Source: a virus. Taken from it: a stretch of DNA of 22,647 bases. Shown piece by piece: positions 1 to 20,760 of this stretch (position 1 is the first letter of the stretch; every line of letters begins with the position of its first letter). The stretch is from positions 1 to 22,647 of the IMG/VR virus record IMGVR_UViG_3300025652_009085. One strand, written 5' to 3'. A program made the translations under genes and the position numbers. The notes below the pieces were generated by a model that saw only the letters and a list, made by a program, of their open reading frames with translations, was not told the origin of the DNA and searched no databases.

Positions 1-714
1 GATGATACTTTAAAGCTTGAAAACGTTAAGCTTGAAAATCTTGGACAAGCTAAGAAAGTTACAGTTACAAAAGAAGCTACTACAATTGTTGAAGGTAAAG
101 GTTCAACAGCTGAAATTGCTGCAAGAGTCGATGTATTAAGAAGTCTTATTGCAGAAGGTGGCTCTGATTTTGATCGTGATCAGAACCAACAGCGTCTAGC
201 TAAATTATCAGGTGGTATCGGTGTTATTAGTGTCGGTGCTCAGACTGAACCTGAAATGAAAGAGAAGAAGGATAGAGTTGATGATGCATTAGCAGCCACA
301 AGAGCAGCAATTGAAGAAGGTATTGTACCTGGTGGGGGTACTGCTTTATTGCAAGCAAAATGTGCAATTGCAGATGTTGCTGGTAACCTTGAAGGTGATG
401 AAGCTCTTGGAGCTCGTTTAGTTGAAAAGTCAGTTGAAGCGCCTATTCGTCAGTTATGTGAAAATGCTGGTGTAGATGCATCTCAAGTTATATTAAAGAT
501 CTATGAAAGTAAATTAGGTTATAATGTAGCTACTGATGAATATGTAGACTTACTCGAAGCTGGTATCATCGACCCGACGAAAGTAACGCTTTGCGCATTG
601 CAGAATGCAGGCTCTGTAGCGGGAATGTTATTAACGACAGAGTGTCTTATCGTTGATAACCCTTCAGATAAACAAGAAGCTCCAGCTCCGATGAACCCTA
701 TGGGTATGATGTAA
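1..714 (+). CDS. groEL: GroEL chaperonin, C-terminal part (cut by window start)
   Basis: The reading frame is open from base 1 and ends in TAA at 714, giving the last 237 residues of a group I chaperonin (Hsp60). It covers the end of the apical domain, the second intermediate segment and the equatorial domain. The hallmark MKEKKDRVDDALAATRAA is present, with the ATPase aspartate in VDDAL (fragment residue 95). PGGGTALL, TEEY-like TDEYVDLLEAGIIDPTKV, SVAGMLLTTE and a Met-rich tail ending GMM follow. GroEL forms the cytosolic folding chamber. No groES is seen downstream; the 5' end and upstream neighbours lie outside the window. Directly after it come thioredoxin and tail-fibre genes, so this is most likely a phage-encoded GroEL that could fold virion proteins (inference). 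Family assignment is very secure; phage origin rests on context. Confidence 0.95.
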   Translation, partial: DDTLKLENVKLENLGQAKKVTVTKEATTIVEGKGSTAEIAARVDVLRSLIAEGGSDFDRDQNQQRLAKLSGGIGVISVGAQTEPEMKEKKDRVDDALAATRAAIEEGIVPGGGTALLQAKCAIADVAGNLEGDEALGARLVEKSVEAPIRQLCENAGVDASQVILKIYESKLGYNVATDEYVDLLEAGIIDPTKVTLCALQNAGSVAGMLLTTECLIVDNPSDKQEAPAPMNPMGMM

Positions 715-4971: not shown

Positions 4972-5427
4972 ATGGAACTTATAGGTTGGGTGTATACTAT
5001 ATGTTTTGCGATCTGTTATATTCCACAGATCGCAAAGTCTATACGAACAAAACGAGTGGATGATATAAGTATATCACTCTTTATACTATCTTTAGCTGGA
5101 TATATTTGCGCCTGCATATATACTATAGATACAATAGGCATTAATGTTATATTATTAACAAATTATATATTTGGTGCTACATGCAGTTTAACCATGATGA
5201 TTGTATATTTTATGTATCGAAATAGATTAAATACTAATGTAATGTCTGATATCAATTTTAGTAATTCAAGCTATTACCGATTTCTTAAGCAAGAACAGCA
5301 AGAGATCGAAAAATTGAAATGGATTGAATCAGAAAAGGTAGGCCGCGATATTGGAGAGAATAAAGCGGTTTTTTTGTGGACGAAAAACTATAGATCAAAA
5401 TGGGTTAGTAGTTTACCTAAAAAATAA
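4972..5427 (+). CDS. PQ-loop / SemiSWEET-like membrane protein
   Basis: A 151-residue protein with three predicted membrane helices (about residues 3-21, 34-52 and 56-82), the size and topology of bacterial SemiSWEETs. The first helix ends in the defining Pro-Gln pair (C-Y-I-P-Q-I, P18-Q19), followed by the basic loop KSIRTKRVDDIS typical of the family. The family forms dimeric transporters of sugars or related small solutes in the cytoplasmic membrane. A charged C-terminal extension of about 65 residues (rich in E, K, Q and R) is atypical for SemiSWEETs. The gene starts 6 nt after its upstream neighbour and ends 2 nt before the convergent gene. Substrate and role in infection cannot be inferred from sequence. 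Confidence 0.72.
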   Translation: MELIGWVYTICFAICYIPQIAKSIRTKRVDDISISLFILSLAGYICACIYTIDTIGINVILLTNYIFGATCSLTMMIVYFMYRNRLNTNVMSDINFSNSSYYRFLKQEQQEIEKLKWIESEKVGRDIGENKAVFLWTKNYRSKWVSSLPKK

Positions 5428-5429
5428 TA

Positions 5430-5723
5430 TTAATTACTACCGTTAAACCAAGCAATCCCACTGACTATAGCCGCCGTTACAGCTGTAACTATAGTCCATA
5501 TAAATGCTGTAATTGATTTAAGTTTTGATTCTGATTCAGCTGCTTTTTGTTCAACTTCTCTCATACGAGTCTCATACTCAACAAGCCTCTTTAATATAGT
5601 ATGCGTTGTAGTGTTGAGACTAAGAATTTTTTCTTCAGCACGGGCTAAAGATACAACAGCTTCTGCCATCTTATCAATCTTTTCTTCAATTCTATCGAGA
5701 CGAGTTTTTTCTCTGGAGTCCAT
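5430..5723 (-). CDS. Coiled-coil protein with C-terminal membrane anchor (XhlA/holin-like?)
   Basis: A 97-residue protein. Residues 1 to about 70 form a charged heptad-like helix (DRIEEKIDKMAEAV, KRLVEYETRMREVEQKAA). One hydrophobic helix at about 72-92 (FIWTIVTAVTAAIVSGIAWF) and a short tail GSN follow. The architecture, soluble coiled coil then a single C-terminal TM segment in about 90-100 residues, resembles the XhlA family that accompanies phage lysis genes. No lysozyme or second holin is present nearby, and it sits beside baseplate genes, so lysis is only a candidate role. An AATAAATA motif lies 11 nt upstream of the ATG. Confidence 0.6.
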   Translation of the reverse strand: MDSREKTRLDRIEEKIDKMAEAVVSLARAEEKILSLNTTTHTILKRLVEYETRMREVEQKAAESESKLKSITAFIWTIVTAVTAAIVSGIAWFNGSN

Positions 5724-5747
5724 ATATATGTTTATATTTATTAGATT

Positions 5748-5764
5748 TATTAGATAATCTAATA
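5748..5764. repeat. 17-bp inverted repeat between baseplate genes
   Basis: TATTAGAT-A-ATCTAATA, perfect 8-bp arms around one base, in the 58-bp gap between the spike gene and the coiled-coil gene. It sits next to AATAAATA (5735-5742 on the minus strand). It could be an operator or simply AT-rich noise; no T-tract makes it a convincing terminator. Confidence 0.35.
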
Positions 5765-5781
5765 AAAACCATTACATCAAT

Positions 5782-8160
5782 TTAATTTAATTTAGCGTTG
5801 TTTGCTGACTTTAAAGTATTCTGCTGAGCAGTTGCAACCACTGCACTACCTGTATTAATCCCACTATTAGCTGCAGCATTTCTTACATCTTCATTACCTT
5901 CATATAATGTAAGTGGTAAATTTCTAAATGCGTGTGTATGTGGGTATGTTTCTATTGTATCTGGTGTCGGTAGCGCGATTCCAGGCCCGGGTATTGTTGC
6001 GATACCCGCCGTTGTTCCACCATATACTGGAAGAGCTGCTGTATTTACTACAGGGGCTCCCGCACTCGACCCACCACCACCTACATATCCTAATATTGTA
6101 CCAATTGGTATATAACCGAAAAGAGCACCTGGTACTGGTTCCGCAAGAACTTTAGTTGGTTCTGTTACTTGATACTCTATTGGTGCTGATATATGCTGTA
6201 CATATACTTCACCTTCTACATGTAGACCACCACCAACAACGACATTTGATGAAACACCTAAGCTACTTTCTACTAATATTTGTCTTTGTCTTTTATTTCT
6301 GAGTTTGAGAATCTCTGCAGAAATATTAATAACCTTTGCATCTATATTAACTTCATTATCTGAACCTATATTAACTTGCTGACCTGCGATGTTAGTTATT
6401 GAACCTGTAAGATTAGTAGGGCCGTAACTCTTTAAATTTAAACCACCTGCACCTACCATTACATTAAATTTATTACATACGTTCAATGTATATGTACCAC
6501 CTGGCATTTCCTGAACATCAACATACTCGAGTAAAGGACCACTATCTTTATTTGTATATACACCATCACTACCTACAACAACTTCATTAGATAATAATTT
6601 ACCAATAGCATCATATTTAATACTACCGGAATCGTTCATAACCGTCCCAATTGTTTCTAACTTATGTTTTGCAATTTCAATTATCTCACTACCTCCCTTA
6701 CCAAAATCTTTTTCTAATTGCATCATTTTGTCTATTTTTTCAGTAATAGTAGCAACTAAATTCTTTTTTGTAGTATCAGGAGACCATTGACCACCTTCAG
6801 ATGACATACTCAATCCATCACCGAATGGAAATACATTACCTGTCTCTTTCTTCCAATTTTCAGGATCTGTTGATTGCTGAAAATTAACCGGAGCTAACGG
6901 TTGAGGTGGTGATGTACCGAGCGTTTTTAATATACCATCATAAAAGGGTTCATTTGCTTCGGTTGATATATTGGTATCAGCTGCAATCCCTGACCCTGAA
7001 AGTGGATTTGAGTTCATTAAAGCATTATTTTTATTCCTCGCACTAGTAACATTAAATTCTGCAAATGTACCAGATCTAATTTGTTTTACACTATTACGCT
7101 TTATGATTACAGCTCCATCGGAGTTAATAATATTATTAGCTTGCGCTCTTTGTGTATCAAATAATTGCTTCTGATCCTGTATGGTACTATATATTTCTTT
7201 CCACTCATTAACAGTTTCGTAGTTATTTATATTACCTACTTTTTTGTATTTATCTCTAAAGACTATTTCATCTAATGATTTACCAGTATATTCATTTTTG
7301 AAACCCTTAACTGTATCATAACTATCATTTAAAACTAATCGTTGAGCATTTTTAGTAGCTAGCTCAATATTAGCATTATTATTCATTTCTTTAAATGATC
7401 CAGAATATTGAGTCAACTTTACCTTTTCATTGAAGTCAGTGTTAGATATTTCTAATGTACCACCTTTTTGGTTAAGTACATACTTGTTACGGTACGTCTG
7501 AACATTATGATCCATTTCAGTTATACCTTGACTAGCATTTTCAAACTTACCTGGGTAATCTACTTCATTATCATATATACCTTGCCAGTCATCTTTACCG
7601 TAAGTTGCTCCTATTAATACAGGAAATTGCGGATTACCATCTCTAAAAAAAGTATATACGTGAGCACCGACAGATGGTATACCAAACGAACCTTTTGCTT
7701 TATTAGAATATGTATTTGGTTTATACATATAGCTGTATGGGTTTGGATTATTAACGTTATTACCACTTACTGCAAAGGCATCTGTTAGACGAAATAAACT
7801 TTCATCATATAGTTCACCTGATGATGATGAATCTGCTGCTGATAAATTACTATATATATTTGTATCAGAAACAGTAGCTTGTAAAGAGAAATTATTAAAT
7901 CTACCAGATGCATTTTCACTCGTTAATGGAGCTGATGTTTCAGCCCATGGTAATACAGCTTTGAGATTTTCTAATATAGGTGTTATACTTGAATTGATAT
8001 TAAGACCAATAAAACTAAAATTCTTATCAACGTTACTTTCTACCCAACCGTTATATATTGTAGGTGAAATATGTGGTACAAAAACTTTAACACGACCTCG
8101 TTTTTCAGGATCATTATTCTGAATAACTATTCCTAAATATATACTATTATACTCTTTCAT
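5782..8160 (-). CDS. gp5-like baseplate central spike, no lysozyme domain
   Basis: A 792-residue protein beginning with the gp5/VgrG-type OB-fold signature: Y-L-G-I-V-I-Q-N-N-D-P-E-K-R-G-R-V-K-V-F-V-P. A second OB-fold strand block (SFGIPSVGAHVYTFFRDGNPQFPVLIGATYG) lies near residues 167-188, and the middle contains linker and helical regions. The segment at about 560-670 (VGAGGLNLKSYGPTNLTGS, VNIGSDNEVNIDAKVINIS) has the alternating pattern of a triple-stranded beta-helix needle. T4 gp5 (575 residues) carries a lysozyme domain; none is recognisable here. An H-T-H at 741-743 near the C-terminus may be a metal site. It should form the trimeric membrane-piercing spike at the baseplate hub. A late-like motif ends 6 nt before the ATG. 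Confidence 0.8.
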   Translation of the reverse strand: MKEYNSIYLGIVIQNNDPEKRGRVKVFVPHISPTIYNGWVESNVDKNFSFIGLNINSSITPILENLKAVLPWAETSAPLTSENASGRFNNFSLQATVSDTNIYSNLSAADSSSSGELYDESLFRLTDAFAVSGNNVNNPNPYSYMYKPNTYSNKAKGSFGIPSVGAHVYTFFRDGNPQFPVLIGATYGKDDWQGIYDNEVDYPGKFENASQGITEMDHNVQTYRNKYVLNQKGGTLEISNTDFNEKVKLTQYSGSFKEMNNNANIELATKNAQRLVLNDSYDTVKGFKNEYTGKSLDEIVFRDKYKKVGNINNYETVNEWKEIYSTIQDQKQLFDTQRAQANNIINSDGAVIIKRNSVKQIRSGTFAEFNVTSARNKNNALMNSNPLSGSGIAADTNISTEANEPFYDGILKTLGTSPPQPLAPVNFQQSTDPENWKKETGNVFPFGDGLSMSSEGGQWSPDTTKKNLVATITEKIDKMMQLEKDFGKGGSEIIEIAKHKLETIGTVMNDSGSIKYDAIGKLLSNEVVVGSDGVYTNKDSGPLLEYVDVQEMPGGTYTLNVCNKFNVMVGAGGLNLKSYGPTNLTGSITNIAGQQVNIGSDNEVNIDAKVINISAEILKLRNKRQRQILVESSLGVSSNVVVGGGLHVEGEVYVQHISAPIEYQVTEPTKVLAEPVPGALFGYIPIGTILGYVGGGGSSAGAPVVNTAALPVYGGTTAGIATIPGPGIALPTPDTIETYPHTHAFRNLPLTLYEGNEDVRNAAANSGINTGSAVVATAQQNTLKSANNAKLN

Positions 8161-9334: not shown

Positions 9335-9342
9335 TATTTACT
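9335..9342 (-). promoter_or_regulatory. Late-like motif in divergent gap
   Basis: Minus-strand AGTAAATA ending 7 nt before the ATG at 9327. It touches the -35 box of the plus-strand sigma70-type promoter, so the 48-bp divergent gap appears to carry two promoters of different classes. Confidence 0.35.
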
Positions 9343-9369
9343 TGATAAACGTATTTTATATGCTATAAT
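9342..9369 (+). promoter_or_regulatory. Sigma70-type promoter of transglycosylase-kinase-queF operon
   Basis: TTGATA (9342-9347), a 16-nt spacer and TATAAT (9364-9369) preceded by TG-C (extended -10). Only 6 nt separate the -10 box from the ATG at 9376, so the predicted transcription start coincides with the start codon (leaderless mRNA). This host-type consensus suggests early expression, unlike the TATAAATA motifs before virion genes. Confidence 0.7.
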
Positions 9370-9375
9370 ATATGT

Positions 9376-10167
9376 ATGTATGTATCACATGAAAGTCCTA
9401 TATCGTTTTTAGAAGAATCTCGGTCGTATAATGATTACGATTACGCGTTAGTTCATCTATTTGAAACCCATCCAAAGTATTATCAGTTCTTTAAAGATTC
9501 AATTAAGCTTGGTCGTCAAGTATTATTAGATAATAGTATTTTCGAGCTCGGAGAATCATTTGATTCTGAAAAGTTTGCTAGTTATGCTAAAGAATTAAAA
9601 CCTAGTTTTTATATTGTACCAGATGTATTAGAAGATGGTTATGCAACTATAAAGAGTTTTATCGAATTTACTAATAAATACCCAGATTTACCAGGGTTGA
9701 AAATTGGCGCAGTTCAAGGTAAAACGTATGATGAAATTGTAGATTGCTATAGGTATATGTCAGATTTTGCTGATTACATTGCAATTAGCTTCGACTTTAG
9801 TTATTATATTGTAACAGGTACCGGTAAGACAAAATTAGAAAGATGGTGTAACGGTCGTCGAAGATTAATTAATCAATTGAAATCAGACGGTATTTGGAAT
9901 AATAATAAACCTCATCACCTTTTAGGTTGTTCTTTAGCTAAGGAATTCAAAAGCTATATTGGTGATAGATCTATTAGATCAGTAGATACATCTAATCCAG
10001 TTGTTGCAGGTATTAAGGAACTTAGATATAATGGTGATCTAGGATTAAACGAAAAGCCATCGATTATGTTAGCTGATCTAATTGATCATAAAGTTACTGA
10101 TACGGAGCAAGAGAATATAAATTATAATGTCAATCAATTTAAAAGTATTATAGGTCATGGTTATTAG
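9376..10167 (+). CDS. TGT/DpdA-like 7-deazaguanine transglycosylase
   Basis: A 263-residue protein whose motifs align in order with the TIM-barrel tRNA-guanine transglycosylase superfamily. LLDNSIFELGE (Asp52) corresponds to DSGGFQ. YIVPDV (Asp83) corresponds to the substrate-recognition Asp. IGAVQGKTYDE (Gln114) corresponds to VQGG. HHLLGCSL (182-186) corresponds to the MGVG/LAVGE loop. SVDTSNP (Asp204) corresponds to the nucleophile motif FDCVLPTR. The C-terminal zinc site (CxCxxC...H) of bacterial TGT is absent and the protein is much shorter than TGT (about 375), as in phage DpdA-type enzymes that put 7-deazaguanines into DNA. Overlap with the kinase gene (11 nt) and operon linkage to queF support a deazaguanine role. 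An RNA target cannot be excluded. First gene of an operon with a strong sigma70-type promoter. Confidence 0.72.
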   Translation: MYVSHESPISFLEESRSYNDYDYALVHLFETHPKYYQFFKDSIKLGRQVLLDNSIFELGESFDSEKFASYAKELKPSFYIVPDVLEDGYATIKSFIEFTNKYPDLPGLKIGAVQGKTYDEIVDCYRYMSDFADYIAISFDFSYYIVTGTGKTKLERWCNGRRRLINQLKSDGIWNNNKPHHLLGCSLAKEFKSYIGDRSIRSVDTSNPVVAGIKELRYNGDLGLNEKPSIMLADLIDHKVTDTEQENINYNVNQFKSIIGHGY

Positions 10168-10708
10168 TTTTACAGGAGCTCAAAGTACAGGTAAATCGAC
10201 TTTACTGAAAGCAATTCAATTGGATGAACGCTTTCGTAAGTTTAATTTTGTGCCAGAAATTACAAGGAGTTTAAAAGATAAATATAAGTTAGATATTAAT
10301 GAGAGCGGGGATGAATATACTCAATTATTAACTGTTAATAGCCATCTATATAATTATCTTGATTTTAAAGGTAAAAATGTTGTATTAGATAGATGTATTC
10401 TAGACGGGTTAATATATACGATGTATCAGTATCAGACGAAAAAAATACCTATTGAGATATATAATTATAGTGAATACCTCTTTAGTAAATTGATTGGTAA
10501 TGTCGATGTTATACTTTATACAGAACCTGATATACCCTTAGTAGATGACGGTGAGAGAAGTGCGAATAAAGAGTTTCGTGATACTATCATTAACCTTTTT
10601 GAAGAGGCAATCATTCATTTTAAAATAGATGTAGTAAGGTTAAGCGGTACAGTTGAACAACGGTTAGAAACAATATATAATACATTTGATAATTATGGCA
10701 AACAGTAA
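10157..10708 (+). CDS. NadR-like P-loop nucleoside kinase / AAA_28-type ATPase
   Basis: A 183-residue P-loop protein. The Walker A motif GAQSTGKST is at residues 7-15, FVPEITRSL follows near 32, a DR motif lies in VVLDRCILDG, and ILYTEPDIPLVDDGERS precedes a helical lid (FRDTIINLFEEAI). This layout matches the ribosylnicotinamide-kinase domain of NadR and related AAA_28 proteins, which phosphorylate nucleoside-like substrates in the cytosol. The start overlaps the transglycosylase gene by 11 nt and the end overlaps queF by 14 nt, so the three are translationally coupled. Whether the substrate is nicotinamide riboside, another nucleoside or a deazaguanine derivative is unknown. The fold is clear; the specificity is not. 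Confidence 0.75.
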   Translation: MVISFTGAQSTGKSTLLKAIQLDERFRKFNFVPEITRSLKDKYKLDINESGDEYTQLLTVNSHLYNYLDFKGKNVVLDRCILDGLIYTMYQYQTKKIPIEIYNYSEYLFSKLIGNVDVILYTEPDIPLVDDGERSANKEFRDTIINLFEEAIIHFKIDVVRLSGTVEQRLETIYNTFDNYGKQ

Positions 10709-11624
10709 ATTAGATAACAGCAATATTAGTAAGCATCTCGGTCAATCGTCTCAGTATAAGAGTACGTATGATAAAGGTCTACTAGTAAGAGAACCCCGAA
10801 GTAATAATAGAGAGTATCTCAATATTTTTGATGATGCTTTACCATTCGTTGGTTCAGATACGTGGAATGCATATGAATGCTCATTCCTTTTAAAGAATGG
10901 TCGACCTGTTACAGGTGTAGTTAAATGTGTATACCCATGCAGTAGTAAGTATATTGTCGAGAGTAAAAGTATTAAACTATACTTTAACTCTTTTAATATG
11001 ACTAAAATGGGTGACGGTAATGATGAAGCAGTTAAGAACTTCGAAGAAATTTCTGCCAGAGATTTAAGTGAACTACTCCAGACTGATGTTAAGGTATCAT
11101 TTCATAGTAGTGTACGGGTAAATAAAAAGTTTAGTAGTCCAGATAATGAATGGGATATTGAGCATTATTTAAATGTTGATCTCTTAGAGGATTCTAGTAG
11201 TCTTGAATATACTCAGTATACTGAAGATCCAAGTTTATTAGAAGCAGTTAGTCGAGGGAATGAAATAGAGCAGAAGTTCTATTCTGGCTTACTTAAGAGT
11301 AACTGTCGTGTTACTTCTCAGCCAGATTGGGGTGATGTATTCATTCATATTAAATCAAAGAATGCTATCGATGCTCATAGTATACTGAAATATGTTATAT
11401 CATTTAGAGACGAATGTCACTTTCATGAAGAAATTTGCGAGTGTATATATAAACGTTTACAAGATGCGTTCGAACCGAGCGAACTCTTAGTAATGTGTCT
11501 ATATGCGCGACGAGGTGGTATTGATATTAACCCAGTTAGAGCATCAAGCAATGATCTAATTGAACGGTTTGCTAAGCCGCTTGTTGATCCTGGGATGATA
11601 CATATCAAAACGAGTAAGCAGTAA
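10695..11624 (+). CDS. queF: NADPH-dependent 7-cyano-7-deazaguanine reductase (QueF, long form)
   Basis: A 309-residue protein of the bimodular QueF type (E. coli QueF is 282). It reduces the nitrile of preQ0 to the aminomethyl of preQ1 using NADPH. The QueF motif ESKSIKLYFNSFN is at residues 89-101, and the catalytic Cys204 and Asp211 lie in SNCRVTSQPDWG. FRDECHFHEEICE (237-249) holds the substrate-binding His-Glu, and ARRGGIDINPVR (271-282) is the conserved C-terminal block. The ATG at 10695 is chosen; an in-frame TTG 9 nt upstream adds only MII. It overlaps the kinase gene by 14 nt and is followed by a strong terminator. No other preQ0-pathway gene (folE, queD, queE, queC) is in the window, so preQ0 must come from elsewhere in the phage or from the host. 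Confidence 0.93.
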   Translation: MANSKLDNSNISKHLGQSSQYKSTYDKGLLVREPRSNNREYLNIFDDALPFVGSDTWNAYECSFLLKNGRPVTGVVKCVYPCSSKYIVESKSIKLYFNSFNMTKMGDGNDEAVKNFEEISARDLSELLQTDVKVSFHSSVRVNKKFSSPDNEWDIEHYLNVDLLEDSSSLEYTQYTEDPSLLEAVSRGNEIEQKFYSGLLKSNCRVTSQPDWGDVFIHIKSKNAIDAHSILKYVISFRDECHFHEEICECIYKRLQDAFEPSELLVMCLYARRGGIDINPVRASSNDLIERFAKPLVDPGMIHIKTSKQ

Positions 11625-11630
11625 TATAAG

Positions 11631-11658
11631 AGCCGATAGCGAAAGTTATCGGCTTTTT
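11631..11658 (+). terminator. Intrinsic terminator of queF operon
   Basis: AGCCGAT (11631-11637) pairs with ATCGGCT (11648-11654) around AGCGAAAGTT and is followed by TTTTT. It starts 6 nt after the queF stop and is one of the clearest GC-rich hairpins in the window. Confidence 0.85.
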
Positions 11659-11667
11659 AATGCGCAC

Positions 11668-11704
11668 AAAAAGAGACCTAGCTCAAATTAATGAACTAGG
11701 TCTC
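11668..11704 (-). terminator. Intrinsic terminator of the capsid gene
   Basis: Perfect 9-bp stem GAGACCTAG (11673-11681) with CTAGGTCTC (11696-11704). Read on the minus strand it is followed by TTTTT (11672-11668). It terminates the gp23 transcript and lies back to back with the queF terminator. Confidence 0.82.
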
Positions 11705-15030: not shown

Positions 15031-15483
15031 TTATTTTATACCTAATTCTTTTTCAGTTAAAATTAAAAATTCATAACCTTTTTTATCTGCCCATTTTTTA
15101 GCTGCTACCCATTTAGCTTGATTTACAACCCAAGTCTTTTGTTCATACAATATAGTCGTCTTTCTTTTACCTTTTGTATTACATGGTTTTTCAACTTGTT
15201 TACTTGGCTTTATTTCTATTAAAAATTTCTTTTTATTATTATTTCTATCTAAAAAAACTATAAAGTTATCAACAAAGTATCGATGCACCTTATTATCTAT
15301 AGGACTCAAATACGGTATTATAATATTTTCACTACCCCAAGCTAATATATTTTCATTTAAATCTGCCCATCTAAAAAACTTTAATTCCCAACTTGACCTA
15401 TATACAGGATCTCCTTTACCTATGTATTTTTTATTGTTATTAGGTTTGAATATACCTTGCCTATACCTTTTATCCTTTTTCAT
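15031..15483 (-). CDS. Head completion protein gp4-like (PD-(D/E)xK nuclease fold)
   Basis: A 150-residue protein, the same length as T4 gp4 (head completion protein, also called gp50/65). Hallmarks are RQGIFKPNNNKKYIG at the N-terminus, VYRSSWELKFFRW (27-39), IPYLSPIDNKVHRYFVDNF and FLIEIKPSKQ. Glu33, Asp72 and Glu90-x-Lys92 give a TnsA/PD-(D/E)xK-type arrangement, in line with suggestions that gp4 trims or seals DNA at the head vertex after packaging. In T4 it is far from gene 21, so its position directly upstream of gp21 is a rearrangement. No TATAAATA motif was seen upstream; only 15 nt separate it from the divergent gene. Confidence 0.88.
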   Translation of the reverse strand: MKKDKRYRQGIFKPNNNKKYIGKGDPVYRSSWELKFFRWADLNENILAWGSENIIIPYLSPIDNKVHRYFVDNFIVFLDRNNNKKKFLIEIKPSKQVEKPCNTKGKRKTTILYEQKTWVVNQAKWVAAKKWADKKGYEFLILTEKELGIK

Positions 15484-20307: not shown

Positions 20308-20760
20308 TTATTTATCCCAAGGAAACACTAACCAATCAGAAGTATTGATTATTTTACCAGAAATAGTATTCTCGTTAAAATTTGTGTTATATCTAGTAGT
20401 TAAGCTACAGTACAGTAATTCACCTATATCTGGGTATTCAGATTTAATTAACGAATTAACAGCTTCGAAGGTTCTACCACTATCATTGATATCATCTACT
20501 ACTAGTACATTACCAGTTATAGTAGGTCTTTGATACACCAAAGTTTCGCTATGTTGATCCATCTGGTGTCGCGTATTGATACCTAGATTTTGTAAATTTT
20601 TTATATCAAGTTTATAACTCAATATAGCTCCTGGAATTAAACCACCTCTACCCAGTGCAACAATTGTATCAAACTTTATATTCTTCTTACTAATACTTTC
20701 TGCAACCATATTAGCAATAAAATCTACATCATCCCATGTAAGTTTTATATTTTCTTCCAT
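20308..20760 (-). CDS. Purine (xanthine/guanine-type) phosphoribosyltransferase
   Basis: A 150-residue type I phosphoribosyltransferase, the size of E. coli Gpt (152). The PPi-loop region IVALGRGGLIPGA is at 33-45, the PRPP-binding signature VLVVDDINDSGRTFEAV at 85-101, and the terminal WLVFPWDK at 143-150 matches the WVVFPWE ending of xanthine/guanine PRTases. It would convert free purine base plus PRPP to the nucleotide and pyrophosphate in the cytosol, i.e. purine salvage. It has its own sigma70-type promoter rather than a late motif, placing it with the early-type genes, and is followed directly by gp15. The exact base used cannot be read from sequence. Confidence 0.85.
   Translation of the reverse strand: MEENIKLTWDDVDFIANMVAESISKKNIKFDTIVALGRGGLIPGAILSYKLDIKNLQNLGINTRHQMDQHSETLVYQRPTITGNVLVVDDINDSGRTFEAVNSLIKSEYPDIGELLYCSLTTRYNTNFNENTISGKIINTSDWLVFPWDK
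20309..20316 (-). promoter_or_regulatory. Late-type motif before gp15 GTG start
   Basis: Minus-strand GATAAATA overlapping the phosphoribosyltransferase stop codon (20308-20310) and ending 5 nt before the GTG at 20303. Confidence 0.45.

Follow-up and report, generated by a model that had tools for sequence, protein, structure and literature searches.

We identified in a marine phage a three-gene operon that is probably the insertion and last-step cassette of a pathway substituting 7-deazaguanines into phage DNA, a reading that is neutral as to whether the exchange takes place on free nucleotides or in DNA. DpdA-type enzymes are known to substitute bases; what appears new is a near-universal kinase partner, which we did not find described in the literature searched, the papers on Campylobacter phage CP220 and on DpdA3 lying outside that search. 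The reading was tested on fold, residues, pathway genes, and kinase linkage, and we infer the chemical activity, the identity of the virion base, and the nucleotide level. The window, i.e., the whole stretch of DNA analyzed (22,647 nucleotides), is a 22.6-kb fragment of the phage, which we counted against the reading.

Organization of the Operon

The operon and the elements discussed with it are the following:

9376..10167, plus strand: transglycosylase gene, 263 aa; TGT-fold guanine transglycosylase, PHROG 19058
10157..10708, plus strand: kinase gene, 183 aa; small P-loop kinase, AAA_28, dNK/TMPK/NadR-kinase fold
10695..11624, plus strand: QueF gene, 309 aa; bimodular NADPH-dependent 7-cyano-7-deazaguanine reductase, C204/D211
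9342..9369, plus strand: sigma70-like promoter, TTGATA-N16-TATAAT, 11/12 consensus match
11631..11704, sites predicted for the minus strand: two terminator-like hairpins between the operon and an opposite-strand capsid gene
20308..20760, minus strand: phosphoribosyltransferase gene, PF00156 (1.8e-11)

Consistent with the three overlapping plus-strand genes described in the first-pass annotation, open reading frames were found at 9376-10167, 10157-10708, and 10686-11624, the last of which likely starts at the ATG at 10695 rather than the TTG at 10686. Neighboring genes of the operon overlap by 11-14 bases. The promoter-like element ends 6 nt upstream of the transglycosylase ATG. TTGATA-N16-TATAAT recurs at that spacing when 12 upstream regions, that of the window among them, are aligned, so that the operon may give a leaderless or nearly leaderless first mRNA. 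Nonsynonymous change is suppressed in all three genes (dN/dS ~0.04-0.17 for the pairs where it was computable). These low ratios, together with the matches to PHROG 19058, AAA_28, and TIGR03138 and the 556 or more relatives that the transglycosylase has in IMG/VR, argue that the reading frames are not due to chance.

Elsewhere in the window, a 152-aa reading frame (256-714, plus strand) matches GroEL over its C-terminal part alone (positions 399-538 of PHROG 5725), positions 4972-5427 of the plus strand encode a small PQ-loop/SWEET-like membrane protein, and a protein with a TnsA-like endonuclease domain (15031-15483, minus strand) is found among head genes.

Fold and Family of the Transglycosylase

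Single-sequence searches with the first protein gave no match in Pfam, NCBIfam, or PDB, and a profile search gave unrelated weak matches only; the protein is a member of PHROG 19058 (3e-65), a family of unknown function. The AlphaFold2 model, built on an alignment of 36 sequences, has a pLDDT of 94 and a pTM of 0.91, and the 50 best matches listed by Foldseek in the PDB were all tRNA-guanine transglycosylases (E 1e-8 to 5e-7, prob 1.00). The structure prediction called for earlier as a check thus places the protein within the TGT fold. Comparison with E. coli TGT by hhalign (E 0.0012) pairs FGIIQGSVYEDL with IGAVQGKTYDEI and DKPRYLMGVG with NKPHHLLGCS, the Gln region thereby being aligned. The ordered TGT motifs Asp52, Asp83, Gln114, and Asp204, previously read from the single sequence, are present as numbered and are invariant across the 36 sequences, down to 25% identity. 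The zinc site was likewise correctly called missing, as no CxCxxC motif was found in the 263-aa protein. With tRNA-guanine transglycosylase the operon enzyme shares the fold and the catalytic residues, but it is without the zinc-binding subdomain and shorter (263 vs. 375 aa).

With tRNA TGT as its nearest fold, the enzyme could in principle modify tRNA, the operon raising the preQ1 supply for the tRNA of the host; such queuosine boosting has been proposed for phages with preQ0 genes and without DpdA (PMC6884629). We find this quite improbable given the missing zinc site and the dADG in the DNA of CP220, which bears a homolog. It is hardly credible that the enzyme handles a deazaguanine-modified protein, for which Cap10, the TGT-family protein of type IV CBASS, is a precedent (PMC11996544): no nucleotidyltransferase or other CBASS genes were seen in the operon, and the CP220 homolog belongs to a phage with modified DNA.

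The closest named relatives are the "DpdA" of Flavobacterium phage immuto (MW353176; 51% identity) and CPT_0056 of CP220 (48% over 99%), and more distant ones were found in Cellulophaga, Chryseobacterium, and Weizmannia phages. Phage immuto likewise has the gene order transglycosylase-kinase-QueF, and queC, queD, queE, and folE lie nearby; it differs by an additional formyltransferase gene between the first two, and the annotation of its kinase goes no further than thymidylate kinase. In CP220 (CPT_0056-0057), the transglycosylase is also followed by an AAA_28 kinase, but there is no QueF, an HD+kinase gene lies upstream, and the reported final base is dADG. The presence of dADG in CP220 DNA has been shown chemically (PMC8306585, PMC6884629). 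In 2019, the Campylobacter phages were nevertheless placed among those with preQ0 genes and without DpdA, and two options were named, one being a machinery that makes modified dGTP and the other 2'-deoxyribosyltransferases that had escaped detection (PMC6884629). CPT_0056 fits the undetected-transferase option.

The transglycosylase lies outside the classical phage DpdA family (9g, Dp-1, slur01; PHROG 887) and belongs to PHROG 19058/20335 instead. The classical enzymes share the order of the TGT-type motifs (DSGAF, LDG, CDSSS) and stand beside preQ0 genes, but they form a separate sequence family (hhalign E 0.081), are mostly larger, and are without an adjacent kinase, their neighbors being clamp/polymerase, ParB, or transporter genes. 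In mycobacteriophage Typha and Fusobacterium phage phiFN37 (L169 and L170), the classical DpdA adjoins ParB-like genes, possibly a targeting partner. The isoelectric point, tried as a sign of DNA binding, did not separate the two families, and the Youna2 TGT as a query found no viral relatives. We take the family studied here to be probably DpdA3, a subfamily named by Cui et al. in 2023 and reported to allow complete replacement of G.

QueF and the preQ0 Pathway

The third gene matches TIGR03138 at 4.7e-76 and 256 bits, below the equivalog cut-off of 293 bits, and shows the hallmarks of QueF, with both modules, the Cys/Asp pair, the ESKS region, and the FHE motif. Cys204 and Asp211 keep their earlier numbering when counted from the ATG at 10695. 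We conclude that the gene is a genuine, full-length QueF and, from its sequence, a predicted preQ0-to-preQ1 reductase; the distinction between this reduction and QueF-L amidination is said not to be settled by sequence alone (PMC6884629).

A search for folE, queD, queE, and queC had also been suggested, and preQ0 genes were found elsewhere in the genomes of relatives: among 22 whole records, QueC was present in 13, QueD in 17, and QueF in 16. With a full-length QueF here and queC and queD elsewhere in close relatives, the replacement of guanine by a preQ1-type base, as the first-pass annotation had it, is well supported, the TGT fold and the CP220 homolog adding to the evidence; resistance to restriction, also proposed there, would be a possible benefit. 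In the proposed pathway, FolE, QueD, QueE, and QueC, encoded elsewhere in such genomes, would produce preQ0, QueF would reduce it to preQ1, and the transglycosylase would exchange guanine for preQ1 by the double displacement of TGTs. The predicted roles are nucleophile for Asp204, acid-base catalysis and recognition for Asp52 and Asp83, and guanine contact for Gln114.

The sets of que genes vary and a formyltransferase gene sits between the transglycosylase and the kinase in many relatives, which suggests that one transglycosylase family serves several base chemistries. Phages phi13:1 and MA9V-3 and the loci L136 and L138 have FolE, QueD, and QueE without QueC or QueF, and judging by this gene content their pathways would end at an earlier 7-deazaguanine (CDG/DG-type). 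Compact clusters were seen on two bacterial MAG contigs, one (L173) with QueE-like, phosphoribosyltransferase, QueD, FolE, transglycosylase, formyltransferase, kinase, QueF, and QueC genes and the other (L174) with transglycosylase, kinase, QueF, and QueC; these are probably phage contigs binned into MAGs.

Linkage of the Kinase to the Transglycosylase

The linked kinase had been pointed out in the first-pass annotation, with a co-occurrence search as the way to check it. We clustered the transglycosylases at 90% identity and, for the 50 clusters with enough flank, found the kinase by HMM within 1.5 kb in 40. In Youna2, a different TMPK-like gene overlaps the transglycosylase, raising the count to 41/50, to be read with the sequences being related by descent and the clusters thus not independent trials. 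Seven further clusters, L025 and L154 among them, have a kinase within ~7-8 kb, so that about 48/50 have one in the same record. The contig of L117 ends before the kinase position, and L028 is the sole cluster truly without the kinase: this 140-kb record (G001; L028/L155), which counts against the reading, holds the transglycosylase but neither a matching kinase nor QueC, QueD, or QueF, a TMPK-like gene lying 6.6 kb off. Around classical DpdA, none of 15 loci had a P-loop ORF within 2.5 kb, with the caveat that in one record a 375-aa frame ~3.6 kb away matches AAA_28.

In the distant transglycosylase clade, the adjoining kinase belongs to another subfamily, AAA_18. That different kinases adjoin different branches of the transglycosylase family argues for functional coupling, and we propose the kinase to be an integral, chemistry-independent partner of the transglycosylase. 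In one lineage (L025:8794-14397 and L154:2810-8325), a minus-strand gene block of ~5.5-6 kb splits the transglycosylase from the remainder of the operon.

Identity and Role of the Kinase

The kinase matches AAA_28 at 1.1e-15, and the structural matches of its model (pLDDT 90) include deoxycytidine kinase, Mycoplasma deoxyadenosine kinase, NadR kinase, and thymidylate kinases. The earlier description as NadR-like holds for the fold but not for the family: only the kinase part of NadR is matched, at 35 bits vs. a cut-off of 341, and the combination of NMN adenylyltransferase and kinase is not found. Both the thymidylate kinase fold and the DR motif are present. Thymidylate kinases contact thymine through an Arg that precedes the conserved His by three residues; our kinase alignment does not conserve this Arg, the window having V60 and CP220 a Leu there. 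Many large relatives encode, close to QueE/QueD and glycosyltransferase-like genes, a further AAA_28 kinase that is divergent (~240-280 aa; L149-L153 in phage records G006-G010, e.g., L149:9121-9966), and in CP220 a divergent AAA_28 kinase (5407-5940) adjoins a dUTPase.

NAD-related cofactor supply, a role suggested in the first-pass annotation, was rejected, as CP220 keeps the enzyme and the kinase without QueF, the NADPH-using step, and distant phages use another kinase family. P-loop kinases serve other phage hypermodification pathways, and the kinase might phosphorylate the base itself, like the 5-hmdU DNA kinases in thymine hypermodification. We hold this to be very unlikely, since the kinase accompanies enzymes predicted for preQ1, formyl-preQ1, ADG, and QueC-less (CDG/DG-type) bases alike, and the reported base of CP220, dADG, carries no phosphate. 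The constancy of the kinase, set against the varying side-chain enzymes and the QueF-less CP220, makes action on the side group of the base or in NADPH supply unlikely, and with at least three base chemistries accompanied and another subfamily in distant phages, the side group is probably not the substrate. What all pathway variants share is the sugar-phosphate or the released guanine.

Level of the Exchange

We lean weakly toward exchange on the free deoxynucleotide or deoxynucleoside, exchange in DNA being almost equally likely. In the scheme that we tentatively put forward, the TGT-fold enzyme would swap guanine on dGMP or dG, the kinase would phosphorylate the modified dG/dGMP product toward the dNTP, and the phage polymerase would build DNA with little or no dG. 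The gp1 of T4 is a precedent for a dedicated kinase of a modified dNMP. Such a scheme might need the removal of dGTP, and neither MazG above the cut-off nor a YfbR-like dGTP remover was found in 29 records; MazG-like or PRA-PH genes lie beside the transglycosylase only in immuto, phi13:1, L173, and L175. Counting against the nucleotide route, phosphates of dADG were reportedly not detected in the nucleotide pools of cells infected with CP220, and later work is reported to have argued for post-replicative insertion by DpdA in every case.

Guanines may instead be swapped in DNA, as classical DpdA is thought to do (PMC12783734), leaving the kinase an accessory, a reading that we give a real but less-than-even chance. 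In an equally tentative variant, the kinase would be, e.g., a GMP kinase that, with a phosphoribosyltransferase, returns the released guanine to GTP and preQ0. The MA9V-3 kinase is weakly similar to guanylate kinase (E 0.0011), which counts for post-replicative exchange, as does the presence of a PF00156 phosphoribosyltransferase in 16/22 transglycosylase records vs. 0/7 classical DpdA phages, a comparison confounded by larger genomes. However, classical DpdA loci release guanine too and have no adjacent kinase, and hosts already contain a guanylate kinase. The phosphoribosyltransferase in the window may serve the salvage of released guanine, the association being no more than suggestive, and would fit either level of exchange.

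Implications

The 2019 literature did not settle how some phages replace their guanine completely (PMC6884629). The operon is a candidate for both of the options named there in one unit, the transferase and the kinase that a dGTP-type route would need. The kinase, if active on 7-deazaguanine nucleotides, would be a tool for making such dNTPs. If exchange on the free nucleotide is true, hundreds of marine phages would have a pre-replicative route to 7-deazaguanine genomes, explaining complete replacement.
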